From an uncultured Pseudomonadales bacterium (GTDB lineage: Bacteria; Pseudomonadota; Gammaproteobacteria; Pseudomonadales; Balneatricaceae), in contig CALKFY010000027.1 in assembly GCA_938084925.1 (NCBI GenBank), forward strand, positions 54,661-118,660: DNA of 64,000 nt, written 5' to 3'. The notes under the pieces are model-generated. The model was not told the DNA's origin. It made no database searches and saw only the letters and a program-made list of their open reading frames with translations. Made by a program: the position numbers and the translations under genes. Below are positions 1,608 through 64,000 of this stretch, one piece after another. Each line of letters opens with the position of its first letter. Position 1 is the stretch's first letter.

Positions 1608-4136
1608 ATGTCTGTAACGCGTTTAGCCGTAGTTGGTAACGGCATGGTCGGCCACCATTTTTTGCAACAACTAGTCGATCAAGGCGATATTCATCAGTAT
1701 GCCATTACGGTATTTAGTGAAGAATCACTTCTGGCCTACGACCGGGTACAGCTGACCAAGTATATGCAAAGTGGCAGTGCCGAAGCGCTGAGCTTAGCCA
1801 GTCTGGAACAATATAAATCCTGGGGTATCGAGGTTAAAGCCGGGGTCGCCATTGAGACCTTGGATACGCAAGCGCAGATGATTACTGCCAGCGATGGCAC
1901 GCAGCTTGAATATGACAAGTTGGTACTGGCTACGGGTTCTTATCCTTTTGTGCCCCCTGTGCCTGGTCACGATGGTGCGGCCTGCCATGTTTATCGCACT
2001 ATCCCCGACCTGGAAGGTATAAAAGTAGCGGCCAGCAATGCGCGTTCTGGTGTGGTTATAGGCGGTGGTTTATTGGGTTTGGAAGCTGCCAAGGCCTTGG
2101 TTGATCTAGGCTTAGATACCCATGTAGTGGAATTTGCCGATCGTCTTATGATTCAACAATTAGACGCCGAAGGCGGCGAGCTACTGGGTAGTAAGATCCG
2201 TGACCTAGGCGTCAAGGTGCATACCCAAAAGAATACTCAAGCAATTGTACCGTTAGAGCACGGTGGTGTGCAGTTACAGTTTGCTGATGGTGAGCTATTA
2301 GAAACCGATGTGGTGGTGTTTTCTGCCGGTATTCGCCCCCGTGACCAGCTTGCCCGTCAGGCTCAATTAGATGTGGGTGAACGTGGTGGTATTGTCATCA
2401 ATGATCAATGCCAAACTTCTCAACCCAATGTTTACGCGATTGGCGAATGTGCCTTATGGCAACAACGCATCTTTGGTTTAGTGGCACCGGGCTATCAGAT
2501 GGCAAAAACTGTTGCCGCCCATATCAATGGCCTAGAAGGCAGTTTCCTGGGTGCCGATATGAGCACCAAATTGAAGTTGCTGGGTGTGGATGTGGCCAGT
2601 ATTGGTGATGCTCAGGGCAACACGCCAGGCGCCAAAACATACCGCCTGTTTGATGAATACCATGGTCACTACCATAAGCTGGTGGTGGATGAGACCGGTG
2701 AATTCCTGCTAGGTGCTATCTTAGTTGGCGATGCCGAACGCTATACCGAGCTGTTACAGATTTACCAAAACCGCATGAGTCTTCCAGAGCACCCAGAAAT
2801 GTTGTTGCTTTCGGTGGATGATGAAGCCGGTGGCGGTTTTGCGATGGAATTGCCTGCTAGTGCTAGCATCTGTTCTTGCCACAATGTCAGTAAGGGTGAT
2901 GTGGTACGTGCCGTACAAGGTGGTTGTTGCAATGTTGCTGAGGTGAAGGGTCAGACTTGCGCCGCGACTGGTTGTGGTGGTTGTATGCCAGCTCTTACCA
3001 AGGTGGTGCAAGACAGTTTGTTGGAACTTGGTGTAGAGGTGTCTAATGACCTGTGCGAACATTTCGCCTACACCCGTCAGGAACTGTATGACCTGGTGCG
3101 TGTGGAAGAGCTAAAAAGTTACAACGAAGTACTAGAGCGCCATGGCCAAGGTTTAGGTTGTGAAATCTGCAAGCCAGCGCTGGCCTCTATTTTGGCTTCT
3201 TGCTGGAATGATTATGTTTTGGCCAATGACCACGTGGCACAACAGGACAGCAACGACCGTTATCTTGCCAATATTCAAAAAGACGGCAGTTATTCCGTGG
3301 TGCCTAGGGTGCCGGCTGGAGAAATTACCCCGCGGCAGCTGATCGTGCTAGGCCAAGTGGCCGAAGATTTTAGCCTGTATTGCAAGATTACCGGCGGTCA
3401 ACGCGTCGACCTATTGGGTGCTCGCCAAGATCAGTTGCCAGCTATCTGGCAACAACTGATTGAGGCTGGTTTTGAAACGGGTCATGCCTATGGTAAATCC
3501 GTACGTACAGTGAAATCCTGTGTGGGCAGCACCTGGTGTCGATTTGGCGTTGGCGATAGCGTCAAATTGGCCATCGATATAGAGAACCGCTACAAGGGCG
3601 TACGTTCACCGCATAAACTCAAGTTTGCCGTGTCCGGCTGCACCCGTGAGTGTGCCGAGGCGCAAAGCAAGGACATTGGTGTGATTGCCACCGATAAGGG
3701 CTGGAATCTCTATGTTTGTGGCAATGGTGGCATGCGCCCACGCCATGCTGATTTGCTGGCTACGGATTTGGATCAGCAAACTTTGATCACCTATATAGAT
3801 CGTTTGTTGATGTTCTACATCAAAACCGCCGACCGTTTGCAACGTACTTCCACCTGGTTTGAACAGTTGGACGGGGGCTTGGATTACTTGCGTCAGGTAG
3901 TGATTGATGACAAGTTGGCAATAGGCGCTCAACTGGAGCAACAGATGCAGGCCTTAGTGGATGCTTATCAATGTGAATGGAAGACGACTTTAGAAGACCC
4001 GCATGCAGTAACGCGCTTCCAGTCATTTGTGAATAGCCCGGCCACCGATGCCAGCATCGTCATGGTCAATGAACGTGATCAGGTGCGTCCAGCGACCGCC
4101 AATGAACGTATTGAGCTAGTCTCAGCCAGCATTTAA
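1608..4136 (+). CDS. nirB: Assimilatory nitrite reductase [NAD(P)H] large subunit
   Basis: Cytoplasmic siroheme nitrite reductase, reducing nitrite to ammonium with electrons from NAD(P)H. In order: FAD-binding GNGMVGH near residue 10; NAD(P)-binding GGGLLGLEAA near 150; a BFD-like [2Fe-2S] region with CSCHNVSKGD near 423 and CGGC near 460; a second CEICKP near 518; ferredoxin/siroheme domains with CVGSTWC near 637 and SGCTRECAEA near 676, which hold the [4Fe-4S]-siroheme ligands. At 842 aa it is full length. The ATG follows GGGAG by 7 nt. nirD starts 11 bp downstream, so the two subunits are co-transcribed. Confidence 0.97.
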   Translation: MSVTRLAVVGNGMVGHHFLQQLVDQGDIHQYAITVFSEESLLAYDRVQLTKYMQSGSAEALSLASLEQYKSWGIEVKAGVAIETLDTQAQMITASDGTQLEYDKLVLATGSYPFVPPVPGHDGAACHVYRTIPDLEGIKVAASNARSGVVIGGGLLGLEAAKALVDLGLDTHVVEFADRLMIQQLDAEGGELLGSKIRDLGVKVHTQKNTQAIVPLEHGGVQLQFADGELLETDVVVFSAGIRPRDQLARQAQLDVGERGGIVINDQCQTSQPNVYAIGECALWQQRIFGLVAPGYQMAKTVAAHINGLEGSFLGADMSTKLKLLGVDVASIGDAQGNTPGAKTYRLFDEYHGHYHKLVVDETGEFLLGAILVGDAERYTELLQIYQNRMSLPEHPEMLLLSVDDEAGGGFAMELPASASICSCHNVSKGDVVRAVQGGCCNVAEVKGQTCAATGCGGCMPALTKVVQDSLLELGVEVSNDLCEHFAYTRQELYDLVRVEELKSYNEVLERHGQGLGCEICKPALASILASCWNDYVLANDHVAQQDSNDRYLANIQKDGSYSVVPRVPAGEITPRQLIVLGQVAEDFSLYCKITGGQRVDLLGARQDQLPAIWQQLIEAGFETGHAYGKSVRTVKSCVGSTWCRFGVGDSVKLAIDIENRYKGVRSPHKLKFAVSGCTRECAEAQSKDIGVIATDKGWNLYVCGNGGMRPRHADLLATDLDQQTLITYIDRLLMFYIKTADRLQRTSTWFEQLDGGLDYLRQVVIDDKLAIGAQLEQQMQALVDAYQCEWKTTLEDPHAVTRFQSFVNSPATDASIVMVNERDQVRPATANERIELVSASI

Positions 4137-4147
4137 AGGAGCTTATT

Positions 4148-4495
4148 ATGTCTGTACAACAGTGGGTTCAAGTGTGTGATCAGCAACAGCTACTAGCCAA
4201 TGCTGGTGTAACGGCCTTAATAGGCGAACAACAGGTGGCGGTATTTTACGTGCCGGCCAATGATCAGGTATTTGCCGTGGACAACCTAGACCCGGTAACG
4301 GGTGCCCAGGTGATGGCGCGAGGCTTAATAGGTAGCCAAGGCGAACAAATGTATGTGGCATCGCCGTTGTTGAAGCAACGCTATTGCCTACACACAGGCC
4401 AAGGACTAGATGACGACGCACAGCGCCTTAATAATTGGCCTGTGCGCTTAAATGATGGCATGGTAGAAGTCGCACTGGAGGCAGCCAGTGCTTGA
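4148..4495 (+). CDS. nirD: Nitrite reductase small subunit
   Basis: A 115-aa NirD-type protein with a Rieske-like fold but, as in other NirD proteins, without the Cys-His pairs that bind a Rieske cluster. It partners NirB. The start is supported by AAAGGAG 8 nt upstream. Its last codons overlap the GTG start of nasA by 8 bp, so translation of the two is probably coupled. Confidence 0.93.
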   Translation: MSVQQWVQVCDQQQLLANAGVTALIGEQQVAVFYVPANDQVFAVDNLDPVTGAQVMARGLIGSQGEQMYVASPLLKQRYCLHTGQGLDDDAQRLNNWPVRLNDGMVEVALEAASA

Positions 4496-7166
4496 TATTA
4501 GTGATGTCACCATTACTAAGACAACCTGTGCTTACTGCGGTGTGGGTTGCGGTATTGCCGTTAAGCAGGAAATACATGCAGGCCAAGTGATTCATGTTGA
4601 CGGCGACGTTAAACATCCTGCCAACATGGGCCGCCTGTGTATTAAAGGGGCTAACCTAGATAGCACTCTGGTGCAGGCAGGTAGGTTGTTGACGGCTCAA
4701 GTGGACGGTGAGCCGGTGAACAGCGAGAAGGCCTATGACGCTGTTGCTCAGCGTTTACAGCAGGTGATTAGCGAACACGGTCCCGAAGCGGTAGGCTTCT
4801 ATTTGTCCGGACAGTTGCTAACCGAAGACTATTATATTGCCAACAAACTTTGCAAAGGCTTTATTGGTAGTCCAAATTTAGACACCAATTCGCGCTTGTG
4901 TATGTCATCGGCGGTGGTGGCGCAACAGCGCGCCTTTGGCGAAGACTTGGTGCCAGGTTGTTATGACGACCTAGAACAGGCTGACCTTGTGTTGTTAGTG
5001 GGTTCTAATATGGCTTGGACGCACCCTATTGTGTTCCAACGTTTGCTTAAGGCCCGCGAGCGCAATCCAGCTATGCAAATTGTGGTGTTGGACCCGAAGC
5101 AGACAGCAACGGCGCAGTTGGCAGACATGCACCTCGCTCTAGCCCCTGCTAGCGATGGTTACTTCTTTACCGGCTTGCTGGCTTATCTAAATCAGCAAGA
5201 TGCACTGGATTTGGATTATATTCAGGCCCACACGGAAGGCTTTTCTGAGGCCTTGGCAGCAGCGCTTGTTGCTACCCCTGATATTGCTAGTGTAGCCCGC
5301 CAGTGTGACTTATCGGCCGCGCAAGTGGCCAAGATTTTCGCCGCTTTTGCTAACACTGACAAGGTGGTGAGCGTTTATTCCCAAGGCGTTAATCAGTCCA
5401 ATACGGGTAGTGATAAGGCCAATGCCATTATCAACTGTCACCTTGCCACAGGTAAGATTGGTCGTCCTGGTGCTTGTCCATTTTCTATTACCGGTCAGCC
5501 CAATGCCATGGGAGGGCGTGAAGTGGGTGGTATGGCCACACAGCTAGCCGCCCACCGCAGCTATGACGATCCACAACAACGGGCTCAGGTAAAACAATTT
5601 TGGCAAGCACCGCAGTTGCCAGAACAAGCTGGCTATAAGGCAGTTGAACTGTTTGATGCTGTCTCGGATGGGCGTATTAAAGCCATTTGGATTATGGGCA
5701 GCAACCCCGTGGTGAGTTTGCCCAACGCCGATAAAGTACAGCGTGCGCTAGAGCAATGCCCATTGGTCATTGTTTCAGAAACCCATGCCAATACTGATAC
5801 CGCAGCATGTGCTGACATTCTACTGCCAGCCAGTGGTTGGGGTGAAAAAGACGGTACTGTCACTAATTCAGAGCGTATGATTAGCCGTCAGAGGGCCTTT
5901 GCTCCCACGCCACAAGGTGTGCGCCAAGATTGGCAAATTTTGTCAGCGGTAGCACAGCGTATGGGACATGGGCAGGCCTTTGCTTTTACCAGTAGTGCCG
6001 ATATATTCCGCGAACATGCACGACTATCGGCCCTAGAGGACGATACGCCACGGCAGTTCAACTTGGGCCCCTTGGCACAAATATCCGATCAACAATATAC
6101 CGACCTGCAACCCTTGCAGTGGCCGGTACACCGTGATGACAATAGTGCAACTGGTTGGCAGGGTAGCCCGCGTCTGTTTGCCGATGGGCAGTTTGCTACG
6201 CCTTCGGGCAAGGCTTATTGTTATGCTGTAAGTCCTGCCTTGGCGCAAGGCGAATCTAGTCAAGACTATCCCCTATGGCTGAATTCAGGCCGCTGGCGTG
6301 ACCAGTGGCACAGTATGAGCCGTACCGGTGAAGTTGCGCAATTGAGCAAGCATGAGCCAGAGCCGCGCATCGAGATGCACCCTTTTGACGCCAAGGCTTA
6401 TGCCATTACCGACGACCAGTGGGCACGTGTAAGCAGTGCTCAGGGTGATTATGTGGCACGGGTGCGTACCACTTCCTCTTTACGCCAAGGCCAGCTATTT
6501 GTACCGATCCATTGGAACCAGCAATATGCTAGTAAGGCGAAGGCGAGTAGTTTGGTTGCGGCGATTGTTGATGTCAGTTCCGGGCAGCCACAATTCAAGC
6601 AGGTGCCGGTGAAAGTTGCGCCATTAACGATGCAGTGGCAAGCGCGCTTGGTTTGCCGTCAAGCGGTGTCCATGGCCGAACATGAACATTGGGTAAGGGC
6701 GCCGCTACAGGATTTCTGCCAATACCAATTGGCGGGTAATAGTGAGTTTGCTTGGGTCGATTGGTTGCGTATGGTTTTGCCTGAGCAGGATGAAACCATG
6801 GTGCTGCAGTCTAGTGAAGCCCATAGCTTGCGTTTGGCCGTATACCAAAAGGGCCGGCTGATGGCGCTCTTGTGGGTGGCCAAAGAACTGCCCGTCATTA
6901 ACGACGACTTGATTTATAGCCTGTTGCAGCAACCGCGCTTAAACGCCAGCCAACGCTTACAAGCCTTGGCTGGACAAAAAGGCCGCAAGGTGGTGGCAGA
7001 TAAGTTGGTGTGCGCTTGTATGCAAGTGACAGCATCGGCTATTGATGAGGCCATTGACCAAGGTGAAAGCAGCCTCGCGGGTTTAAAAAACAAGCTCGGT
7101 TGCGGTAGTGGTTGTGGCTCTTGTCTAGGTGAAGTGCAGGCACGCTTGAACAAGGCTTACGCCTAA
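4488..7166 (+). CDS. nasA: Assimilatory nitrate reductase catalytic subunit
   Basis: Molybdopterin-guanine-dinucleotide enzyme reducing nitrate to nitrite for NirBD. The N-terminal [4Fe-4S] motif is CAYCGVGC (residues ~14-21) with a fourth Cys in GRLCIKG (~51). The central regions are typical of the NapA/NasA/FdhF family (for example IMGSNPVVSLP). A C-terminal BFD-like [2Fe-2S] module (CACMQVT near 841; CGSGCGSC near 872) is found in NasA proteins that take electrons directly. Length 892 aa. The start is GTG inside the 3' end of nirD. No signal peptide, so cytoplasmic. Confidence 0.96.
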   Translation: MLDISDVTITKTTCAYCGVGCGIAVKQEIHAGQVIHVDGDVKHPANMGRLCIKGANLDSTLVQAGRLLTAQVDGEPVNSEKAYDAVAQRLQQVISEHGPEAVGFYLSGQLLTEDYYIANKLCKGFIGSPNLDTNSRLCMSSAVVAQQRAFGEDLVPGCYDDLEQADLVLLVGSNMAWTHPIVFQRLLKARERNPAMQIVVLDPKQTATAQLADMHLALAPASDGYFFTGLLAYLNQQDALDLDYIQAHTEGFSEALAAALVATPDIASVARQCDLSAAQVAKIFAAFANTDKVVSVYSQGVNQSNTGSDKANAIINCHLATGKIGRPGACPFSITGQPNAMGGREVGGMATQLAAHRSYDDPQQRAQVKQFWQAPQLPEQAGYKAVELFDAVSDGRIKAIWIMGSNPVVSLPNADKVQRALEQCPLVIVSETHANTDTAACADILLPASGWGEKDGTVTNSERMISRQRAFAPTPQGVRQDWQILSAVAQRMGHGQAFAFTSSADIFREHARLSALEDDTPRQFNLGPLAQISDQQYTDLQPLQWPVHRDDNSATGWQGSPRLFADGQFATPSGKAYCYAVSPALAQGESSQDYPLWLNSGRWRDQWHSMSRTGEVAQLSKHEPEPRIEMHPFDAKAYAITDDQWARVSSAQGDYVARVRTTSSLRQGQLFVPIHWNQQYASKAKASSLVAAIVDVSSGQPQFKQVPVKVAPLTMQWQARLVCRQAVSMAEHEHWVRAPLQDFCQYQLAGNSEFAWVDWLRMVLPEQDETMVLQSSEAHSLRLAVYQKGRLMALLWVAKELPVINDDLIYSLLQQPRLNASQRLQALAGQKGRKVVADKLVCACMQVTASAIDEAIDQGESSLAGLKNKLGCGSGCGSCLGEVQARLNKAYA

Positions 7167-7271
7167 CCCAGTCTATAATCTATTTTTGGCAGGGCTTAAG
7201 GTGCCTAGGATTGAGTATATGATCTTGCCACTGCGCACATTGCTAGTCATGTGGGAAGCTTGGATGCGATG

Positions 7272-7418
7272 TCAGCCTAGGTCGCGGAACATAAACTCGA
7301 TACAAGGTGCACGATGGGTACAGTTGCGAGTGTAATAACTCAGCAACTCGTCGACATCGTTGGCTTCAATCAGCCGTATATGGCCATGGCAAGTGTGGAA
7401 GTTGGGCTGTGACAACAT
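7272..7418 (-). CDS. Small 48-aa Cys/His-containing protein following radA
   Basis: An ORF too short for usual cut-offs: ATG at 7418, TGA at 7272. It starts 8 nt after the radA stop on the same strand, with a partial Shine-Dalgarno (TAGG) about 8 nt upstream. The product begins MLSQPNFHTCHGH and ends CIEFMFRDLG, with three Cys, four His and balanced charged residues, which reads as a real folded peptide rather than shadow translation. In-frame stops immediately upstream exclude a longer form. I do not recognise the family. Position suggests co-transcription with radA. Confidence 0.5.
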   Translation of the reverse strand: MLSQPNFHTCHGHIRLIEANDVDELLSYYTRNCTHRAPCIEFMFRDLG

Positions 7419-7426
7419 GGGCTAAC

Positions 7427-8812
7427 CTAGAGTGCCTCAAGGGCATCTTGTAGGGTTTTGATACCCACGATATGCATATTAGCCAAAATGGGGTCGGAGG
7501 TGACTTTGGGTACGTTGGCAATAGGTACAATAGCTCGGGTAAAACCGTGTTTAGCAGCTTCGCGAATACGCTCTTGACCGGAAGGTACGGGGCGAATTTC
7601 GCCAGATAGGCCCACTTCGCCAAATACCACTAGCTGTTGATCCAAGGGCTGACCACGTAAGCTAGAAACGATGGCCATCAACATGGCAAGGTCCGCACTG
7701 GTTTCGTACACCCGCACACCGCCAACCACGTTAACGAATACGTCTTGATCACCCGTATGCAAACCACCATGACGGTGCAGTACCGCCAAGAGCATTGCCA
7801 GACGGTTTTGATCAAGGCCAATGGCCACGCGTCGTGGGTTATTGAAATGGCTTTCGTCCACTAGCGCTTGTAGTTCTACTAATAGTGGACGGGTGCCTTC
7901 CCAAACTACCATCACCAAGCTACCTGCAGCGGCGCCTTCGGCTCTGGAAAGGAAGATAGAGCTTGGATTTTTGACTTCTTTAAGGCCCGTTTCTACCATG
8001 GCGAATACGCCTAGTTCGTTAACGGCACCAAAACGGTTTTTGTGGCCACGTAAGGTGCGGAAGCGACTGTCGTGATCACCTTCCAATTGTAAGGAGCAAT
8101 CAATCATGTGCTCCAATACTTTCGGGCCTGCTAAGTTACCGTCTTTGGTAACGTGACCGACTAGCAAGAGAACAGTATTGCTCTGCTTGGCATAGCGCAC
8201 TAACGCAGCAGCACACTCACGTACTTGGGAAACGCTGCCTGGTGCCGAGGTGATGTCAGCCAGCTGCATGACCTGAATAGAGTCGACCACTAATAGTTTA
8301 GGCTTAACACTGTCAGCCGTGGCAATGATGGATTCAACATCCGTTTCTGCTAACATCTTTAGGTTGGTGGTCGGTAGCTCCAAGCGCTGAGCACGTAAGG
8401 CAACCTGCTGTAAGGATTCTTCGCCAGTCACATACAAGGCGCTCATCTGCTGAGCCATGGTGCACATGAGTTGCAGCAACAAGGTACTTTTGCCTGCGCC
8501 GGGATGGCCACCAATTAGAATGGCAGAACCTGGCACTAGGCCACCACCTAACACACGATCTAGTTCGCCGATATTAGTGCTAAAACGCGGTACCGTGGCA
8601 ATGTCGACGTCGCTTAGGTCCACCAGCTGTGCCGCAACACCGGCATAGCCCTTAATACCTTTTGCGGCGATAGCCGCGCCACCTTTGGCAACGGGGCCAA
8701 GACGAATTTCTTGCAAGCTGTTCCAAGCACCGCAGTCGTTACATTGACCTTGCCACTTGCTGTAGTCGGAGCCGCAGTCGTTGCAGACAAAGGCAGTTTT
8801 TTGCTTGGCCAT
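7427..8812 (-). CDS. radA: DNA repair protein RadA
   Basis: RecA-like ATPase that promotes branch migration during recombinational repair. It has an N-terminal C4 zinc finger (CNDCG ... CNDCG, residues ~10-27), Walker A GGHPGAGKST near 102, the RadA-specific KNRFG motif near 259, and a C-terminal Lon-protease-like domain without a protease site. At 461 aa it is the normal family length. Convergent to nasA. Confidence 0.96.
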   Translation of the reverse strand: MAKQKTAFVCNDCGSDYSKWQGQCNDCGAWNSLQEIRLGPVAKGGAAIAAKGIKGYAGVAAQLVDLSDVDIATVPRFSTNIGELDRVLGGGLVPGSAILIGGHPGAGKSTLLLQLMCTMAQQMSALYVTGEESLQQVALRAQRLELPTTNLKMLAETDVESIIATADSVKPKLLVVDSIQVMQLADITSAPGSVSQVRECAAALVRYAKQSNTVLLLVGHVTKDGNLAGPKVLEHMIDCSLQLEGDHDSRFRTLRGHKNRFGAVNELGVFAMVETGLKEVKNPSSIFLSRAEGAAAGSLVMVVWEGTRPLLVELQALVDESHFNNPRRVAIGLDQNRLAMLLAVLHRHGGLHTGDQDVFVNVVGGVRVYETSADLAMLMAIVSSLRGQPLDQQLVVFGEVGLSGEIRPVPSGQERIREAAKHGFTRAIVPIANVPKVTSDPILANMHIVGIKTLQDALEAL

Positions 8813-8830
8813 GTTATGAGCTTATATTTA

Positions 8831-8889
8831 GTAGGTCGGGTTTTAACCCGACATTTAGGACCTGTTTTGTCGGACTAAAGTCCGACCCA
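8831..8889. repeat. REP-type double palindrome (radA-hemB)
   Basis: Two 18-bp palindromes, GTCGGGTTTTAACCCGAC (8835-8852) and GTCGGACTAAAGTCCGAC (8869-8886), are separated by 16 bp. The first is preceded by GTAG. The same unit recurs at 13038-13088, 33321-33340 and 35988-36053. This arrangement is typical of REP/BIME elements at gene ends, and a RAYT transposase relic is present at 20475-20990. Confidence 0.85.
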
Positions 8890-8891
8890 CA

Positions 8892-11877
<2,986 letters not shown>

Positions 11878-55702: not shown

Positions 55703-55779
55703 GCGCCTGTAGCTCAGCTGGATAGAGTAGCAGGTTCCGATCCTGTTGGTCGGGGGTTCGACTCCCTCCAGGCGCGCCA
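55703..55779 (+). tRNA. tRNA-Arg (anticodon CCG)
   Basis: 77 nt cloverleaf with encoded CCA. Acceptor GCGCCTG/CAGGCGC, D-stem GCTC/GAGT, anticodon stem GCAGG/CCTGT with loop TTCCGAT (CCG at 34-36), variable TGGTC, T-stem GGGGG/CCCTC with TTCGACT loop, discriminator G. It reads CGG. Its 3' 45 bp are duplicated at 62353-62397, so it is the integration target of the adjacent element and remains intact. Confidence 0.95.
55735..55779 (+). repeat. attL: 3' half of tRNA-Arg
   Basis: This 45-bp block runs from the anticodon loop to the CCA end and is identical to 62353-62397. Sequence diverges immediately on both sides (GG versus GA before it, A versus C after it). Confidence 0.93.
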
Positions 55780-55837
55780 ATAAAATCAAAGGGTTAGGGG
55801 TTTTTGCTCTAGGCCAATTTCATTATTTTCACAATCT

Positions 55838-55856
55838 GGTTCCATATTAGGTTCCA
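55838..55856 (+). promoter_or_regulatory. Left arm-type repeat pair
   Basis: GGTTCCA-TATTA-GGTTCCA: two 7-bp repeats with a 12-bp period, 59 bp inside attL. A pair with identical repeat and spacing lies at 62214-62232 near attR. These are candidate integrase arm-binding sites. Confidence 0.65.
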
Positions 55857-55920
55857 CCTAGTTGCTCCTTGTATCAATAGATATAGCTGTTCTTGTAGTG
55901 AGCTCATATCATCTCTTAAG

Positions 55921-56646
55921 TTATACTGAAAAGGTCGATAGCACCATTTGCTCTATTGTGTCTGATAGATCAGATTGAAGCTGTGCGAAGCTACTAGGGT
56001 CTGAATAAAGGCCGCGATTAACCTCAATCATAACTGAAGAGACCCTGTTGTCTTTGTGGTAGTGCTTTAGTGGCACAATTGTGCCGCTGAATGGTGAGTC
56101 AATGGCGACAACATACCCCAGTTTTGTAAACGTTTCTGAAAGGTTACTTATTAACTCCGGTGTGGTGTGGAACATGTCAGTGCCGATACAAATATCCGGT
56201 CGATTTAAGTCTGTCTCATAGGCCAGTGGTTGCTCTGGGAAGCTATGACAGTCGATGATTAGGCACTGATCATGCTGGCCTAGGCAGCTGTCAACCATGC
56301 TAGTCAAGCTGGCGTGGTGAGGGTGATAGTAAGAGTCTATAAGTGTTAAACGTTCTGTTTCGGATATGGCTCTGAGAGGCTCTCCTTCAGCTGTTCGGGT
56401 GTAAACAACACCCATTCCAACGGACTCCATAGGGTCTTCTAAAAAGCGCTCAGGGTCGACAACAAGTCGGCTAACTGGAAACACTATTCTGTTGGCTCCG
56501 GCGCAATTGAAAAGTATGTCAGTATAGTGGTCTGTAAGTTTGTCTAGCTCTGCTGTTAACTGGGCACTGGTCAGTAAAAACTGGCTATCGTCGGGAATGA
56601 CTTTGGATGAATGTGGAATGTGTAAAATAGCGTGATTAGTAATCAT
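55921..56646 (-). CDS. N-formylglutamate amidohydrolase-family protein (element cargo)
   Basis: 241 aa from ATG 56646, with AGAGG 6 nt upstream; a longer frame to 56700 lacks a site. Family features: HAILHIPHSSKVIP at the N-terminus, VFPVSRLVVDPERF, LIIDCHSFPEQPLAYETDLN with metal-binding His/Asp, and VMIEVNRGLY. Characterised members hydrolyse N-formylglutamate in histidine breakdown, but no hut gene is present and the gene is mobile cargo, so the true substrate is uncertain. Closest gene to attL. Confidence 0.82.
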   Translation of the reverse strand: MITNHAILHIPHSSKVIPDDSQFLLTSAQLTAELDKLTDHYTDILFNCAGANRIVFPVSRLVVDPERFLEDPMESVGMGVVYTRTAEGEPLRAISETERLTLIDSYYHPHHASLTSMVDSCLGQHDQCLIIDCHSFPEQPLAYETDLNRPDICIGTDMFHTTPELISNLSETFTKLGYVVAIDSPFSGTIVPLKHYHKDNRVSSVMIEVNRGLYSDPSSFAQLQSDLSDTIEQMVLSTFSV

Positions 56647-56930
56647 ACATAACCTCTTTAGTGCTTTGGCGGAATGCTTGGCGCACAATCTGGTGATCAA
56701 ATGCCATTTTTTTGGAATAGCTCACAATAAATTGAAAATTGGTGGCTAAATTGAATCTCTTGCGGAAGGGCTCTCAGCATAGGGTTGAGGCTGGGCCGCG
56801 TCGGTACTTCACACTGAAAGTGCTTTAAGACTATAACCTCGGGAGATAATTGGCACAACAGATTCAGAATTATTCTTATACAATCAAATGGTAAGGTTAA
56901 CGAATAATTCAAAAATGTAAGGAGCAAGAA

Positions 56931-57173
56931 GTGATTGGATTTTTCAAAAATATTTTAATGATTGCTGCGGGTTTGGTGGCTATGGGGCTAGGCTCTGCTT
57001 TAGTGAAATTAATTGGCATATTGAACCTAATTGGTATAGCAGCGGGCACTGCTGCTTACTACATGTACTTTAAATCAAAGCACGAGCAAGGCTTAGCAAT
57101 TAGCTTGTCAGTTTGTTTAGCAATGGCAATAAATCTAGGTGTTTATGCGATAGCTTTCGCAAGCGTAAGGTAG
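56931..57173 (+). CDS. Small two/three-helix membrane protein (element cargo)
   Basis: 80 aa from a GTG start with AAGGAG 7 nt upstream. Hydrophobic segments at ~residues 5-24, 27-46 and 56-78, small basic loop FKSKHEQG. No family recognised. The only plus-strand gene in the element and divergent from the FGase-like gene, so the 56647-56930 gap probably holds promoters for both. Confidence 0.65.
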   Translation: MIGFFKNILMIAAGLVAMGLGSALVKLIGILNLIGIAAGTAAYYMYFKSKHEQGLAISLSVCLAMAINLGVYAIAFASVR

Positions 57174-57182
57174 GTGATAACT

Positions 57183-57482
57183 TTAAAGCTTGCCAATTAA
57201 TTCCATCAACGCGATAGGCGCAGCACTTAAGCCGATACCAATCGATACAAAAAATACTGGTTGTTGGAGTCGGTAATGTTGGTTAACGAATGCTCTAAAG
57301 CTGCCAAACGTAAGTGCCAGCATCGCAATAGCGGCGAAAGGGTAGCCTATGGCTTGGCCTAGAAGCCAAATAGACACCAAGTACCAGACGATAATGTATA
57401 TGTAATACTTGTCATTATGCTCTTTGTAGGCGGCATGTTCACGTTTCGCATAGTCTTTGTCTTTCTTTCCATGAGTTAACAT
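57183..57482 (-). CDS. Small membrane protein (element cargo)
   Basis: 99 aa. A charged N-terminus (GKKDKDYAKREHAAYKEHND) precedes three hydrophobic segments (~28-47, 48-66, 75-95). AGGAA lies just upstream of ATG. Unknown family. Convergent with the 80-aa membrane protein, with only 9 bp between stops. Confidence 0.65.
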   Translation of the reverse strand: MLTHGKKDKDYAKREHAAYKEHNDKYYIYIIVWYLVSIWLLGQAIGYPFAAIAMLALTFGSFRAFVNQHYRLQQPVFFVSIGIGLSAAPIALMELIGKL

Positions 57483-57555
57483 AAATTTCCTGTTGCTTAG
57501 GCTAATGTTGAATTATTAGGGCTATCTTTTGAAGTTCAGGTGTACGGGAGCTATT

Positions 57556-57870
57556 TGTTGCTACTTTAGCTATATATTTAAGCCTACTTTAAATGGAAAC
57601 ATGGCACCATAATAAAGCTTCTTTTTGTCTACTTTTGTCTACTTTAGATATAAATTACACTGGTTATGCCCCACTTTAGGTGTTTCCCACTTTGGTATTT
57701 TCAAACTCTAAGTGGTGAACGCTACAGGCCAAAGATTATGTGGGCTTTAGGTCAAAATACACCCTTATTCTCCACTTTCTCTGTTTAAGCGCTGGTAGTG
57801 GGGAATTAAGGGAATGTTACCCACTTAGAGGGTTGTTCACCGCTTCCTCCCCACTTAGAGCACCACTTTA
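57556..57870. repeat. Iteron-like repeat cluster (putative replication origin)
   Basis: About ten copies of a CYACTTWRG-like core, most on the plus strand: CTACTTTAG 57561, CCTACTTTAAA 57583, TCTACTTTTG 57629, TCTACTTTAG 57639, CCCCACTTTAGG 57669, CCCACTTTGG 57687, inverted CTCTAAGTGGTG 57706, TCCACTTT 57771, CCCACTTAGAG 57820, CCCCACTTAGAG 57849 and CACCACTTTA 57861. The last ones run into the repA-like stop. No gene lies in 57483-57867. Next to primase and helicase genes, this looks like an origin bound by an element-encoded initiator. Confidence 0.7.
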
Positions 57871-58938
57871 TTTGCCGATTAATATCGTGTCATTTTCTAC
57901 GCGAAGATCGCCATCATCTACCAACTTACCAAGCCATCGCCCGAAGTGCTTTATGGATAAGCCTTGTTTCCTTAAGTCGTCAATAATTATGGTCTTTGTT
58001 GTTGGGCTTCCAGTATTGGTGCGGTGTAGTACAGCCTGTACAAGTGCTTGATGGTTGTTGGTTATTCGACTGCCTTTAGGTAATGTTAGATCGCTGTCAC
58101 TGGGTGGCCTGCCTATTGGAATAACACACAACGAATCGATACTGTCGCCATCTGAATCAGTGCGTATGTGTACGCTTGTGAGATCATAAGCTTTAGGTTC
58201 TGGCTGTTCAGCATCTTTCATTTTTGAACATGTTAATATCAAAGCTTGTTGATCTTCGCCGTCACGTTTAACTCTATATTCTACATCTAGGGCAGCTGGT
58301 AGTGAGCTTGAGCCACGACCTCCGTTTTCGATGTTTTTGCCCGAATGGTGGACGACCAATACAGTAGCTCCTGTAAGTTGCTTAATAGTGTCGCATCCTT
58401 TAATAAATGCCCCCATGTCTTGCGAGGAGTTTTCATCCTTACCTCCGTAACAACGAGCTAATGTGTCGAAGATTATGAGCTTAACCGCATGGCCAGTTTT
58501 GGCTTCAATTTCGTGACAATACATCAGCATTGATTTAATTTGATCGTTATCCGCAGGAAATACCGGCATAGGTAGTCGAGCTAAGTTATCAATACTAGTG
58601 CCTTGGTGTTGTAGCTCCCAAGCTCTTACTCTCTGGGTAACGCCAAAGCCTCCCTCGCCAGCGATATATAGCACAGAGCCTTGGTTAACTTTATGTCCAT
58701 CCCAATCCTTGCCGGCGGCGATATGACAGGCCCAATCTAGTGCTAGGAAGCTTTTAAAGCTGCCACTTGGGCCGTAGATGCTAGCAAATGAGCACTCAGG
58801 AATTAGCCCTTTGATTACGAAAGATTGTTCTTTATTGTAGCCGGTGGAGCCATACTCCAGCTCTACTTTAGGTGGTTTGATTGGCAGTGCGTCCACCTCG
58901 GCTAATGTAGTGTTGATTAGTGTCGCCGGGCTATTCAT
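57868..58938 (-). CDS. RepA-like replicative helicase/ATPase (AAA_25 type)
   Basis: 356 aa from ATG 58938 (AAGGAG 6 nt upstream), overlapping the primase-fragment stop by 8 bp. Walker A SIYGPSGSFKSFLALDWA near residue 55, Walker B LIIFDTLARCYGGKDEN near 145, sensor-like VLVVHHSGK, and RGSSSLPAALDVEYRV. These are hallmarks of hexameric RepA/RSF1010-like helicases of plasmids and satellites. The C-terminal ~80 residues look like a winged helix. Likely loads or drives element replication. Confidence 0.85.
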   Translation of the reverse strand: MNSPATLINTTLAEVDALPIKPPKVELEYGSTGYNKEQSFVIKGLIPECSFASIYGPSGSFKSFLALDWACHIAAGKDWDGHKVNQGSVLYIAGEGGFGVTQRVRAWELQHQGTSIDNLARLPMPVFPADNDQIKSMLMYCHEIEAKTGHAVKLIIFDTLARCYGGKDENSSQDMGAFIKGCDTIKQLTGATVLVVHHSGKNIENGGRGSSSLPAALDVEYRVKRDGEDQQALILTCSKMKDAEQPEPKAYDLTSVHIRTDSDGDSIDSLCVIPIGRPPSDSDLTLPKGSRITNNHQALVQAVLHRTNTGSPTTKTIIIDDLRKQGLSIKHFGRWLGKLVDDGDLRVENDTILIGK

Positions 58939-59332
58939 GTAACGCTCCTTTAATTTTATCGATTCGTTGTTGGCCAAGTAGTCGCCGCTCTTTTTCATAG
59001 ACCGTCAATGGTCGCTCAGTCATTTCTACTGAGTTAATGATGGCGACTTGAAGGCGCTCATGTCTTAGCGCATCTTCAAAGCGTTGTAACTTTCTTTTGG
59101 TTAGCTCGCAACTGGTTAACTTGTTGTAGAAGAGGTCGGCTAGGTTTAGTCCCATCGCGCTTGTCACATCGGTGGTTTCACAGCCAGCAAAGCAGTGGAC
59201 TAAAACTCTGTCAACGGCTTCACTGATCGCTAAGCTAGGGGACTTATCAAGATGGGAGGGGCAGCATGCTATCCATTTTCCATTGCCGCCTGTGACTTGT
59301 TCTAAGCGGTCTAATATGTCTTGGGCGTTCAT
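58931..59332 (-). CDS. CHC2 zinc-finger primase-type protein
   Basis: 133 aa. The DnaG-like CHC2 zinc motif is visible: WIACCPSHLDKSPSLAI ... VLVHCFAGC (ligands Cys, His, Cys, Cys), then a helical tail. No Toprim domain follows, so it is either a primase fragment working with other proteins or a DNA-binding helper. Start ATG overlaps the previous stop (ATGA), with GGAGG upstream; its stop overlaps the RepA-like start. Confidence 0.8.
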   Translation of the reverse strand: MNAQDILDRLEQVTGGNGKWIACCPSHLDKSPSLAISEAVDRVLVHCFAGCETTDVTSAMGLNLADLFYNKLTSCELTKRKLQRFEDALRHERLQVAIINSVEMTERPLTVYEKERRLLGQQRIDKIKGALHE

Positions 59333-59757
59333 AGATCCACCTCCGCTAGCTCACCAGCCGGTTCTTTATGCTCCGCTTCATAGAAATGCTGAGCGGCTAA
59401 TCGCTTTATATATGGTGTAGCGTTGCGCTTGGATCTTAGTTTGTCCACTAGTTCCATCGCCTTAATCCGGTTGTCACCAGTTATGAAATAATGAGCATAC
59501 GAGGCATTGGTTCTGGCTCCTGGTATTTTCTTGCGAACTCTGTCCACTACAATGCCATGGAGTTTTTGAATACTTGATACTTCGGAATGTAAGCAGGTTT
59601 CATTATAAGCCCTGCCAGCATCATGGGTGTTTGTTTCATGACGTGTGAGTAGTAATATTAAACATACTTCGAGTTTGGTTTGGTTCTGAATTGGAGTACA
59701 ATAATCGCTCTCTAAGTGATTAAGGCTGCTCTTTTGGGTGGCTTTCTTTTTGCTCAT
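59329..59757 (-). CDS. Putative winged-helix protein of the replication operon
   Basis: 142 aa, GGAGG 8 nt upstream. The central part (LEVCLILLLTRHETNTHDAG ... HSEVSSIQKLHGIVVDRVRK) reads like a helix-turn-helix/winged-helix domain: a helix, a short turn and a recognition helix before RKKIPG. The N-terminus is Lys/Ser-rich. Operon position with primase and helicase genes suggests an initiator or copy-number regulator, possibly the iteron-binding protein. Family not certain. Confidence 0.55.
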   Translation of the reverse strand: MSKKKATQKSSLNHLESDYCTPIQNQTKLEVCLILLLTRHETNTHDAGRAYNETCLHSEVSSIQKLHGIVVDRVRKKIPGARTNASYAHYFITGDNRIKAMELVDKLRSKRNATPYIKRLAAQHFYEAEHKEPAGELAEVDL

Positions 59758-59769
59758 CAGTTCGCCCTC

Positions 59770-59988
59770 CTATGCCGCAGTATTTGGCTGGTTGGCAAAC
59801 TGTTCTAGCCACTTATCAAGTACGGCGCGATCATATATGACTTTGCGGCCAACCTTTCTGTAAGCCGGCGCAGGTACTCCGCATAGAATGCCGCTGACTC
59901 TTGATAGGCGTACTGTGCTGGATGCTAGGCCTATATGACGTGCACTTTCGTGTGTGTCTAAATGGGGTTGTAGTTGAATGTTGTTCAT
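59770..59988 (-). CDS. AlpA/excisionase-like helix-turn-helix protein
   Basis: 72 aa. DTHESARHIGLASSTVRLSRVSG, then PAYRKVGRKVIYDRAVLDKWLEQ, is the MerR-like HTH pattern of AlpA/Xis proteins (A...LG.S..T...W / G.PAYRK.GR.V.Y...DLD.W). Small HTH proteins of this type control integrase expression or act in excision. First gene of the replication operon. Confidence 0.8.
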   Translation of the reverse strand: MNNIQLQPHLDTHESARHIGLASSTVRLSRVSGILCGVPAPAYRKVGRKVIYDRAVLDKWLEQFANQPNTAA

Positions 59989-60057
59989 AATTTGCTCTCA
60001 TAAATGGTTGTTTGTTCGAGAGCTAGGTTAATCAAATAGCCTTTAATAATATTCAGG

Positions 60058-60768
60058 CTATTTTTTTGCTTTTTCTTGCTTATTAATGGCCCGTATTTTT
60101 TTTCTGCAAAATTCGTTATTAACGTGAAATCCCATAAGAGTTAAGCAGGATTCAAAAAATCGCTCGGCAGGAGAGGCGTTATTAAATGTTCCTTTTGATG
60201 GGTTCTTACCGGTGGCTTCTTTATACGTGTTGGCGAGGAGTGGCAGTATCGCATCAATTCCGACTCTTTTATCTTCGCTACCCGTGGTCATGTAGAGTTC
60301 TGCTTTACTTTTATTGGAGCAATTTTTGGTTGTGTTTTCCAGCAGGCTTAGCAGTTCAATCAACTGGACTAGGTTTTTGTGGTCATTACAAAATTTACCA
60401 TCAGCTACCCAGTCGTTATAAACATCAGTGTCGACAGCAAGTAAATCACTTAGCAATTGGTTTAACCTTATATTCAATTCCTTGTGGGTATTGCGCTTTT
60501 GTTTGTAGGTTAGGCCCTCCTTTATATATTTATCCGATTCATTATATGGGAAAGAGCTTCGTTGTCGGATCTGTTTTGCGAGCATATGTATTTGATTCAA
60601 CGGGTGAAACAAATCATATTCTCTTGCTATGTGGTTTCTGCCTTTATTGGTATTAATGCGTACAATTTCGGCGTCATGCCGAGAGATAGAGCTCTCGGTG
60701 GCTACAGCTGAAATATGTGGTAATTCTGTAAAAAAGTAATGGTGTTTAGCTTGCGGGATTTTTGCCAT
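60058..60768 (-). CDS. Unknown protein of the integrative element
   Basis: 236 aa from ATG 60768 (AGAGG 9 nt upstream). Rich in charged and polar residues, mostly predicted helical; no transmembrane segment. Features visible: a His-rich start (QAKHHYFFTELPH), a middle with repeated Leu/Asn (LNIRLNQLLSDLLAVD), and a basic C-terminus (RKKIRAINKQEKAKK). I do not recognise a family. It lies between the integrase and AlpA-like genes, a place where satellites keep regulatory or accessory genes. Confidence 0.6.
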   Translation of the reverse strand: MAKIPQAKHHYFFTELPHISAVATESSISRHDAEIVRINTNKGRNHIAREYDLFHPLNQIHMLAKQIRQRSSFPYNESDKYIKEGLTYKQKRNTHKELNIRLNQLLSDLLAVDTDVYNDWVADGKFCNDHKNLVQLIELLSLLENTTKNCSNKSKAELYMTTGSEDKRVGIDAILPLLANTYKEATGKNPSKGTFNNASPAERFFESCLTLMGFHVNNEFCRKKIRAINKQEKAKK

Positions 60769-60861
60769 CTGTCGCACCTCTGCGACCTACGATAAGGACG
60801 CTTTGCCAAGGTGGGTAGGTTGTCCACCATTTCGGTAATGAGCCTAGGCGCAGCAATTTGT

Positions 60862-62184
60862 TTAGCCTGTTATTGATACTACCTTGGTTGGCTCTAACTC
60901 TGTTTCAATAACATTGTTCGCTAGCCAGCGTTCCCAGGTTTTCATAGCTTTGGTCTTTTCAGACCAATAATCGTATCTGTCGTAGTGCTTGCTACTCACA
61001 TCATGTGTAGCGTGATTTTGAATGCGGTCACGTATCTCCTTACTTATTCCCGCTTTACCCATTAAGGTTTTAACTGTGCGTCTGATGTCTCTTGGTGTGA
61101 ATGCTTCCATGGGCAGATGAGGGCGCATGTTAGCGACTTGATTTGATAGCACACTGACGCGCTTGTAAATATCACTCTTAGGGTTTGATACGCGTGAAGG
61201 AAACAGCAAGCCGCTAGAGCCTGCTTCCAGAATCCGGGATTCAATTTCGTGCCAAGCAAAGCGATTTAGCGGGATCAGATTAGGGTTGCTAGTTTTCGTC
61301 TTGAGCATGTATATCGCCTGCTCGTTAATGTCTACGTCCTCAGTGGTGATTCGCATTAATTCGGCAGGGTGGAAGCCAGTACAAACCATTACCTTTAGTA
61401 AACTGGCGTAAACAGGGTTCATGTATTTCGTACATGAATTCCATACAATGCGTAGGTCGTTGTCACTCAAGTGTCGTGACAATGCTCTTTCAAATTTTTT
61501 CAAACTTTTAATTTTGGCTACGGGATTAATTTTAATATCAAATGATAAATTGTCATCACGCTTTTTTGTTATGTCATGGTCGTATGTGAGACCTACGTTA
61601 AACGCTGCGTGCAGGTCGCCACGAGTTCTGTTCACTGTAGTGGTTATGCCCTGTTTATACATGGCATGTAATATATCGGTAATATCGTCTGCTGTGATGA
61701 GGTTGGCTTTGCGGGCTGCCAAGTGTGGGTAGGGCTTGGTTACGTAGCGCTCAAGGTTCTTATAAACTCCCTCAGTTGACGACCTGTCTTCTGACTTCAT
61801 CTTGTCGCGGTAGACTTCAAAAAGCTGTTGTAAGGTGCCTAGGTTATTTAGTCGAGTGCGTTCGCGTTTGGCAGCTAGTTCCAGCTCTACACGCTCGCGC
61901 TCTTCCTCTGCGAGAATGAACTTTAAGTCTAGACAGTTTGCTGATTTCTTTGACAGTTTATCGGCCTCTATCCGAGCGTTTGCCAAAGTTATCGTAGGGT
62001 AAACCCCTATCTTAATGTTGGTCTCTCTACGATCTGGGTTTATTTTTCGGAAATAAAATTCTTTAACTCCACCAGACTTGCGAAGCTTATGCCAAATGAC
62101 GAGAGAGCCTCCATCATCAAGTCGCTCACTTTTTCGCTTTCCAGGTTTAAGCCCTAGTATGCTGCTGTCGTAAATCCTGCCCAT
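60862..62184 (-). CDS. int: Tyrosine-type integrase (P4-like, DUF4102 N-terminus)
   Basis: 440 aa. N-terminal arm-binding DUF4102-like domain (LDDGGSLVIWHKLRKSG ... KIGVYPTITLANARIEADKL), SAM-like core from ~120, catalytic domain from ~230. The first catalytic box reads CTGFHPAELMRI, with His where the conserved Arg is expected; the second TPRDIRRTVKTLMGKAG, with Arg in the usual His position; then NHATHDVSSKHYDRYDY with the nucleophilic Tyr. The second change occurs in relatives of this subfamily. Next to attR, and responsible for insertion into tRNA-Arg. Confidence 0.9.
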   Translation of the reverse strand: MGRIYDSSILGLKPGKRKSERLDDGGSLVIWHKLRKSGGVKEFYFRKINPDRRETNIKIGVYPTITLANARIEADKLSKKSANCLDLKFILAEEERERVELELAAKRERTRLNNLGTLQQLFEVYRDKMKSEDRSSTEGVYKNLERYVTKPYPHLAARKANLITADDITDILHAMYKQGITTTVNRTRGDLHAAFNVGLTYDHDITKKRDDNLSFDIKINPVAKIKSLKKFERALSRHLSDNDLRIVWNSCTKYMNPVYASLLKVMVCTGFHPAELMRITTEDVDINEQAIYMLKTKTSNPNLIPLNRFAWHEIESRILEAGSSGLLFPSRVSNPKSDIYKRVSVLSNQVANMRPHLPMEAFTPRDIRRTVKTLMGKAGISKEIRDRIQNHATHDVSSKHYDRYDYWSEKTKAMKTWERWLANNVIETELEPTKVVSITG

Positions 62185-62352
62185 AATGATGACCCTAGAA
62201 GATAGCTCAATTTGGTTCCATAAGTGGTTCCATCTGTAAGAATACAGTCAAGTACAACTATTAGCAATGAGTTACAAATAAGGTTTAAATATCAGTATGT
62301 TATGATTTAGATGGCTTCAAGGAAATACCATGATAACCAATAAAACAATAGA
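62185..62352. other. Integrase upstream region with right arm-type sites
   Basis: Non-coding. Contains GGTTCCA-TAAGT-GGTTCCA at 62214-62232, matching the pair at 55838-55856 in sequence and spacing. The integrase promoter must lie here, so arm binding may autoregulate it. Confidence 0.6.
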
Positions 62353-62397
62353 TTCCGATCCTGTTGGTCGGGGGTTCGACTCCCTCCAGGCGCGCCA
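62353..62397 (+). repeat. attR: copy of the tRNA-Arg 3' end
   Basis: 45 bp identical to 55735-55779, preceded by unrelated sequence so no tRNA is formed. Marks the right boundary of the element. Confidence 0.93.
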
Positions 62398-62523: not shown

Positions 62524-62838
62524 ATGGCAATGACAGCGTTTCAATACCGATTTGTAGAAGAGCTAATTAAGGAGCCAACTGGCAATGCATCTGCTGCGTA
62601 TAGGAATGCTGGCGGCTTTTCAAAGTATGCCAAGCAAAGTGCAAATAAATTGCTGAAACACCCTAAAATAGCTGAAGGAATAGCAAGACAGCAAGAATTG
62701 TTAGCGCAAAATGTGATTTATGGTTTGGTTGAGGCCCACGAGGACATTAAGCGTGGTATGAACTCTGCGGAAAATTCGGAGGATTGGCTAAAGGGTGTTG
62801 AAATGCTGATTCGACTGCATGGCTTAAACAAGAGCTAG
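62524..62838 (+). CDS. Phage terminase small subunit-like protein
   Basis: 104 aa. FVEELIKEPTGNASAAYRNAGGFSKYAKQSANKLLKHPKI matches the DNA-binding region of small terminases (..F..EYL.DGNAT.AAI.AGYS...A...AS.LL.NPKV). It lacks the usual C-terminal oligomerisation part, so may be short or partial. It lies outside attR, 126 bp to its right, with no large terminase or capsid genes in view. Possibly the start of a second island or a prophage remnant. Confidence 0.7.
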   Translation: MAMTAFQYRFVEELIKEPTGNASAAYRNAGGFSKYAKQSANKLLKHPKIAEGIARQQELLAQNVIYGLVEAHEDIKRGMNSAENSEDWLKGVEMLIRLHGLNKS

Positions 62839-63051: not shown

Positions 63052-63405
63052 TTAATTAGTTGATTTGTTATCTATCCCTAAGCCTGATTGAACTCTCCGC
63101 TGTGCATTCATTATATCTGCGTCGTTGATATTCCCTTTCCCGTCACACCAGAAGCATATTCCTAATAACTTACCCGTAAGCTGGGAATGAATGCCCCCTT
63201 TACTTTTACACTTAGGGCAGGAACCTGGGCGAGTCGGAAATTGCACAGTAAGGTAGTACGATTGGCCTATGTGTCCTTTTGCTTTGTTTTGTGGAGGCTC
63301 GGGCATCGGAGGCCAAACGCCGTTGATGCATACGACAAGGTTTGATTTAACGCTCTGTCGGAATCTGTAACGAGGCTTGGTGTTGGCATTGTTTGGTTTT
63401 TGCAT
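63052..63405 (-). CDS. Zinc-ribbon-like small protein
   Basis: 117 aa from ATG 63405 (GGAG 8 nt upstream); upstream in-frame codons to 63453 are less likely. The C-terminal half has two Cys pairs with Gly, CPKCKSKGGIH and GICFWCDGKGNI, reminiscent of a DnaJ-type or phage zinc ribbon. The N-terminus is basic. Function unknown; it sits among phage and IS remnants. Confidence 0.6.
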   Translation of the reverse strand: MQKPNNANTKPRYRFRQSVKSNLVVCINGVWPPMPEPPQNKAKGHIGQSYYLTVQFPTRPGSCPKCKSKGGIHSQLTGKLLGICFWCDGKGNINDADIMNAQRRVQSGLGIDNKSTN

Positions 63406-63579
63406 ACAAAATACTCCGTACTTATGTTGATAAACAAGGTTCCAAAGAACCAAAATAGGATCGAAAACTTGGATCGCTGGAATCCGGGGCGCCCGCCTTT
63501 TATGGCTAGGGAACCTATCTAGAGGGGGAAGAGATAATCAAAAATTTATTAAAAATTTTTAGTAAGAGGAATGTTTGCG

Positions 63580-63852: not shown

Positions 63853-64000
63853 TTTCCTAGACACCTTTTAGTTAGATAAACTAACGAAAACAGAGGTGTG
63901 TATGAAGGGTAAAAGATATCCAGAAGAATTCAAAATTGAAGCGGTCAAACAAGTTGCTGTTGGCGGACATGGTGTTGCCGATGTTGCCAAACGACTAGGC
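63850..64000 (+). mobile_element. IS3-family insertion sequence, left end (runs off the window)
   Basis: A short non-coding lead (TAGTTTCCTAGACACC...) is followed by an ORF starting at 63902. The right inverted repeat and target duplication are outside the window, so the exact left boundary is uncertain. Confidence 0.7.
63902..64000 (+). CDS. IS3-family transposase OrfA, N-terminal part
   Basis: The product begins MKGKRYPEEFKIEAVKQVAV and continues GGHGVADVAKRLG, the HTH start of IS3-family OrfA proteins. GAGGTG lies 4 nt upstream of ATG. Cut by the window end. Confidence 0.85.
   Translation, partial: MKGKRYPEEFKIEAVKQVAVGGHGVADVAKRLG

Follow-up and report, generated by a model that had tools for sequence, protein, structure and literature searches.

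A 6.6-kb tRNA-Arg island of an uncultured Pseudomonadales bacterium with the gene order of Gram-negative phage satellites

P4-like satellites combine an integrase, an AlpA/Vis-like protein and replication functions of their own with repeats, and are marked by alpha, sid, psu and delta. Gram-negative phage-inducible chromosomal islands (PICIs) follow the order int, X, alpA, Y, primase or rep and an iteron origin 3' of rep, as given in passages of a study that also presents EcCICFT073 as an experimentally proven PICI and reports four Pri-Rep variants among E. coli PICIs (PMC6092414). For the phage-inducible chromosomal minimalist islands (PICMIs) of Vibrionaceae, the excerpted definition requires integration at fis and a DUF3987/DUF5906 primase (PMC10803314). 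Here we describe a 6.6-kb island in the tRNA-Arg(CCG) gene of an uncultured Pseudomonadales bacterium (Balneatricaceae; assembly GCA_938084925.1, contig CALKFY010000027.1), lying in a 64,000-nt stretch referred to below as the window. Its att repeats, gene order, rep lineage, iteron array and lack of packaging genes, all read from sequence, indicate that it is probably an integrated satellite of the Gram-negative PICI type, reduced to integration/excision and replication.

The window is the final 64 kb of its contig (C27), which ends 1.6 kb beyond the island, in a host genome of 2.38 Mb that is 87% complete and, judged by its relatives, falls in or close to Oceanospirillaceae. The repeat unit measures 6,618 bp from attL (55735-55779) to attR (62353-62397), and the exact 45-bp repeats described in the earlier note on this DNA were recovered (45/45 bp identical; 47/48 over 48 bp). 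Read from the right end on the minus strand, the order is integrase, p239, AlpA-like gene, p142, CHC2, RepA-type helicase, iterons, memB and FGase, with memA on the plus strand; the genes from int to rep thus share a single transcription direction, as in PICIs, and all main open reading frames (ORFs) of the island are open. The features are listed below; L258 and L032 denote sister islands and G131 a genome of the same genus, all treated further on.

55703..55779, plus strand: tRNA-Arg (CCG) gene, integration target, intact (ARAGORN; Rfam tRNA)
55735..55779, plus strand: attL core, 45 bp, equal to the 3' end of the tRNA-Arg gene (repeat comparison)
55838..55856, plus strand: putative integrase arm-site pair GGTTCCA-N5-GGTTCCA, left end (motif count)
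55921..56649, minus strand: FGase-family hydrolase, cargo (PF05013, FGase, 1.7e-49; structure 2q7s 2.6e-9)
56931..57173, plus strand: memA, 80-aa hydrophobic cargo protein
57183..57482, minus strand: memB, 99-aa hydrophobic cargo protein
57561..57868, no strand: putative replication origin, iterons 3' of rep (AAGTGGG/AAGTGGA rep-proximal, AAAGTAG distal, AT-rich stretch between)
57868..58998, minus strand: RepA-type AAA_25 helicase/initiator (PF13481, AAA_25, 1.6e-40; RepA structure 1g8y 2.2e-5; tree)
58931..59332, minus strand: stand-alone CHC2 zinc-finger (primase-type) protein (PF01807 1.6e-5; 71% identical in L258, 36% in L032)
59329..59757, minus strand: p142, operon gene with sister-island relatives (52% over 52 aa in L258; 31% over 74 aa in L032)
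59770..59988, minus strand: AlpA/Xis-like regulator, 72 aa (phrog_66 1.1e-4; 69% identical to a G131 gene adjoining the same tRNA)
60058..60777, minus strand: p239, between int and alpA, the position of the int-adjacent gene in PICMIs (no confident family in Pfam or PHROGs)
60772..60848, minus strand: conserved 77-bp leader between int and p239 (78% identical to L258)
60862..62184, minus strand: tyrosine integrase, 440 aa (PF00589, Phage_integrase, 4.6e-10; PF13356 arm-binding domain; phrog_1)
62214..62232, plus strand: putative integrase arm-site pair GGTTCCA-N5-GGTTCCA, right end (motif count)
62353..62397, plus strand: attR core, 45 bp, identical to attL (repeat comparison)

The integrase, RepA-like helicase and FGase-family enzyme named in the earlier note are all borne out by Pfam. 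Its AlpA-like protein fares less clearly: the gene is matched weakly by PHROG 66 ('excisionase and transcriptional regulator', 1.1e-4), HTH_17 falls below the cut-off and PF05930 does not match, and the assignment is supported because position and neighbours fit. The CHC2 zinc finger stands, its description as a primase fragment does not, since sister islands carry the same stand-alone gene, of 133-138 aa, in the same place; with both CHC2 and RepA encoded by separate genes there too, the gene in the window is not a broken primase or a product of decay. The two small membrane proteins are hydrophobic by eye, a judgement made from the sequence, and match no family above cut-off. As had also been claimed, the nine island proteins scanned against Pfam and PHROGs match no capsid, packaging or conjugation family; nor does Pfam find among them a relaxase or partition family of the kind that marks integrative and conjugative or integrative and mobilizable elements. 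The motif GGTTCCA-N5-GGTTCCA occurs exactly twice in the 64-kb window (0 in 100 shuffles), some 59 bp inward of attL and 121 bp inward of attR, and, being placed at both ends of the island, the pairs look like integrase arm sites.

The earlier note could assign this gene set to no described class. Here we differ, as the gene order equals the Gram-negative PICI layout in the passages cited (PMC6092414) and the RepA groups with reps of islands of the PICI and capsid-forming PICI (cf-PICI) types. Like EcCICFT073 and the EcCI of IHE3034, the island has a terminal integrase and a specific att site, a one-way operon, rep followed by an iteron origin (here putative), and no lysis genes, and its weakly matched AlpA-like gene lies where they have an AlpA-type gene; nor do Pfam and PHROGs reveal structural genes, which PICIs lack beyond those for capsid and TerS hijacking. 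It differs from those two in its 6.6-kb size, in lacking the major capsid and decoration proteins that both carry (with TerS in IHE3034), and in having RepA where they have an annotated DNA primase. Genes for capsid morphogenesis or packaging interference, absent here between the att sites, occur only in some PICIs and are not strictly defining. With PICMIs the island shares its size, the lack of capsid and packaging genes and the order int, small gene, alpA, small gene, replication gene, its int and replication gene being clear and its alpA match weak, but it lies in tRNA-Arg and not in fis, and encodes CHC2 and an AAA_25 RepA with no DUF3987/DUF5906 match in Pfam. Among the Pfam and PHROGs matches of the window there is, unlike in P4-like satellites, no alpha-type replication protein, sid, psu or delta. 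The island is therefore PICMI-like in economy, but it is neither a PICMI nor a P4 element.

The replication gene links the island to PICIs. Aligned against viral contigs, RepA sequences gave at least 80 loci from 455 confirmed matches, with 43 (L093-L135) at 45-54% identity among the matches listed; a scan with the single protein gave 6 loci at 31-37%, of which the two whose ORFs were read appear phage-like by eye. The integrase has no close relatives in these contigs, only 2 distant ones at 31%. One RepA relative lies in L102, an island of the same layout as Gram-negative PICIs, where int, AlpA and RepA are joined by an ssb-like gene, a head decoration protein, TerS and a lambda-type major head protein that shares 65% identity with its EcCICFT073 counterpart. 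Another, L132, whose layout we take to be of the cf-PICI type, resembles the island in its RepA (51%), in int and AlpA upstream and in related-core repeats 3' of rep, and differs in carrying a major head protein, protease, portal, TerS and TerL. Separately, two islands with this rep (L097:12042-13964, by PHROGs; L093:5131-7053, by eye) encode a protease-major-head fusion protein, so that the capsid cassettes found with this replicon are of at least three kinds.

A tree of 70 reps joins the window and L258 as a pair (100/100) within a clade of 33 rows (100/96), which comprises all 28 rows of at least 44% identity and 5 others; inside it, 24 island reps of the viral collection and one from a Trabulsiella genome group at 100/98. 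The remaining 37 reps, more distant and largely phage-type, fall outside. As the label 'island' was set by identity to the window, this clustering is partly built in, and the nearest rows are the useful point. Among the 22 non-redundant loci (27 in all) whose sequence extends 3.8 kb or more 5' of rep, an integrase lies upstream of rep in 19, AlpA in 17 and both in 15, a count that favours L258, L099, L032 and L033, which seeded the Int and AlpA profiles and were themselves counted.

The iteron-like cluster of the earlier note was likewise confirmed. Within 384 bp 3' of rep, AAGT[GA]G occurs at 10 sites on either strand (shuffle mean 0.86; none of 2000 shuffles as high), and 11 of the 16 sites listed island-wide lie in 57561-57868; as far as sequence layout goes, the two iteron sets with an AT-rich stretch between them reproduce the PICI origin. 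Of 25 non-redundant RepA relatives with at least 44% identity and both flanks present, window and L258 left out, 22 carry four or more AA[AG]TG[ACG]G sites within the 450 bp 3' of rep, against 0/25 in the upstream 450 bp and 0/25 in shuffles; the same array occurs in 2/37 of the more distant reps. The pattern was chosen after inspection of the arrays, so this comparison is a description with controls and not a blind test. Repeats of their own, different in sequence (a 7-mer in at least four copies), adjoin 25 of the 37 distant, phage-type reps on the 3' side. Repeats next to rep are thus general, and it is the core, AA[AG]TGNG, that marks this lineage. The comparison shows that the RepA-type rep travels with a putative origin, the iterons 3' of the gene.

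An integrative plasmid-like replicon, moving by transformation, vesicles or conjugation in trans and not by phage, would share several of these properties: integrase, rep and iterons look self-sufficient, the RepA has a relative in a plasmid-type RepA of known structure (1g8y) and is found on plasmid records, and packaging genes are missing by Pfam and PHROGs. We regard this as unlikely, because the nearest reps belong to PICI- and cf-PICI-type islands, the int-alpA-rep order is the satellite layout, and the relaxase and partition families sought in the nine proteins did not appear.

A scan of the genome collection with RepA gave 8 loci, one of which, at 27%, was not used. The closest sister island (L258/L262) lies in another genome of the genus (G459, Oceanospirillaceae metagenome-assembled genome JAPYOS010000001.1), beside ssrA (tmRNA); it is smaller and has no cargo, and reads Int, X294, AlpA, p142-like, p96, p103, CHC2 (71%), RepA (75%) and iterons, followed by chromosomal genes. 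No direct repeat was found as its att, so that its right end (about 11.7 kb) is placed where chromosomal genes resume. Its integrase is 25% identical to that of the window over about 200 aa, and its AlpA, a clear one (PF05930 2.1e-12), has no BLAST match to ours. In Nitrincola schmidtii, of the same family, L032/L266 has Int and, further along, AlpA, p119, CHC2 (36%) and RepA (48%) beside tRNA-Ser. The block alpA-Y-CHC2-rep therefore recurs at tRNA-Ser and at ssrA; both sisters share with the window the order AlpA, Y, CHC2, RepA, iterons and differ from it in integrase and target. In G373, also beside tRNA-Ser, the order is Int, X, AlpA, Y and a fused primase-helicase (X, AlpA and Y by eye; the AlpA profile missed it). 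Because CHC2, RepA and the leader are similar between window and L258, and Int and AlpA are not, we conclude that the integration module was exchanged and the replication cassette and leader were retained. More tentatively, Oceanospirillaceae may harbour a packaging-gene-free branch of the PICI replicon, in islands of 5.7-6.6 kb whose CHC2-RepA-iteron cassette would be swapped whole between integrase/AlpA/att modules, and which would depend wholly on a helper terminase or else use the TerS of another element in tandem at that tRNA. If so, minimal satellites would have arisen a second, independent time, PICMIs being the other case. The class itself is recognisable; what is new is the packaging-less branch with its proposed cassette swapping.

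The leader at 60772-60848 ends immediately 5' of the next start codon, and the genes flanking it in L258 are non-homologous or distant. It gave no fold signal and no Rfam match as an RNA element. A 16-base core of it gave 7 matches in viral contigs, none of them accompanied by matches to window proteins, and these were taken as chance. A structure predicted for p239 (AF2) was discarded at a pLDDT of 43. As to the cargo, FGase relatives occur in 10 of 381 genomes of the order, the window's own included, and PADLOC returned no anti-phage match for the five window proteins scanned.

The tRNA-Arg gene is a hotspot: at 5 of 19 family loci, chosen partly for an already listed second att copy, a second copy of at least 45 bp lies 6.6-10.9 kb away, with other contents between. 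At one of these sites (L073:1967-8813), an island of about 6.8 kb with matching att at the same tRNA carries a single giant PDC-S37-like defence gene, with no integrase that we could see; it is an att-flanked defence cassette. At another (L076, oriented 1742-9766), the tRNA-Arg gene is duplicated whole, with a PD-Lambda-4_A-like gene and again no integrase seen. Beside the same tRNA in G131 (L079:2421-2621), an AlpA 69% identical to ours is followed by a gene that by eye has only the N-terminus in common with p142, a locus that is a mosaic or relic. G407 (L259:8537-8767) retains the relic of a related island: the 77-aa tail of a RepA, accompanied by iterons and situated 14 kb downstream of this tRNA.

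A satellite that was once mobile but has since been deprived of its packaging module, and survives as a resident remnant, would likewise lack packaging genes, and the loci in G407 and G131 are relics of similar islands within the genus. We consider this improbable for the island in the window, whose main ORFs are all open, whose att copies are identical and whose arm-site pairs are retained; moreover, a packaging-less sister that keeps CHC2 at 71% and RepA at 75% indicates that the reduced form has persisted.

To the right of the island lie two ORFs, on the first of which the earlier note was silent.

62524-62838: TerS-like ORF, 104 aa, 126 bp outside attR (Terminase_2 1.5e-10)
63052-63453: zinc-ribbon-like ORF outside attR (by eye)

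TerS matches were obtained in 5 of 116 genomes of the family, the window's own included. In G443 (L089), a TerS (35%) and a zinc-ribbon-like ORF directly follow the same tRNA without this island; the pair is thus most simply a separate neighbour, which suggests a second, tandem islet at tRNA-Arg. Window positions 63900-64000 hold, by eye, the start of an insertion sequence-like transposase, which is probably why the assembly breaks there. That the island is a piece of a larger prophage or integrative and conjugative element, as the nearby TerS-like ORF and the contig end might hint, is hardly credible given att repeats that bound exactly 6.6 kb, a smaller sister island and the independent occurrence of the pair in G443; the result that the earlier note named as refuting, a larger element preserved whole in related genomes, did not turn up, the integrase being found in 1 of 15 genus genomes, the window's own.

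We thus return to the PICI-type satellite. By analogy with PICIs and PICMIs, a helper phage would trigger the AlpA-type gene; the integrase would then recombine the 45-bp att cores, aided by the arm sites, with the AlpA-like protein acting as excision factor or activator; the RepA-type helicase and CHC2 would start replication at the iterons 3' of rep, giving a multicopy circle or concatemer; and the helper's own terminase and capsid would package and transduce the island as monomers or concatemers. Excision and replication may be expected from the anatomy, induction and packaging from the analogy. Several points weigh against this reading. The AlpA-like protein lies under Pfam cut-offs; the Pri-Rep of EcCICFT073 is unrelated to the window RepA, and RepA-type helicases are likewise encoded on phage records (1302 of 50,697) and plasmid records (25 of 72,556). 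The integrase search of the 15 genus genomes gave no second whole-island copy, and no matching empty attB was found, the right flank of the window having no DNA match in the loci examined. Pfam and PHROGs place no packaging, interference or capsid gene inside att, no helper is known, and phrog_2, the one TerL family tried, has no match in the 87% complete host genome, where no resident helper was seen. The island itself is known from genomic data. The missing packaging and capsid genes are themselves no argument against a satellite, because EcCIMP1, in the part of its description drawn on here, was transferred with no identifiable capsid or terminase genes (PMC11773190), and the excerpted account of PICMIs gives them no capsid-remodelling genes either (PMC10803314). 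Since helper dependence is argued by analogy and the AlpA match is weak, we file the island as working like a Gram-negative PICI and not as a proven member.

The satellite-like, apparently self-replicating character that the earlier note saw in an island without structural genes is thus supported. Among open-licence PMC papers, our searches turned up no account of an island of this type in Oceanospirillaceae. The analysis connects a packaging-less island, from a family of bacteria that has received little study, with the replicon lineage to which PICI- and cf-PICI-type satellites belong. If the island is mobile, it would provide a second case, beside the PICMIs, of how few genes a satellite of tailed phages needs, and its rep/iteron signature could be used to find more such islands.

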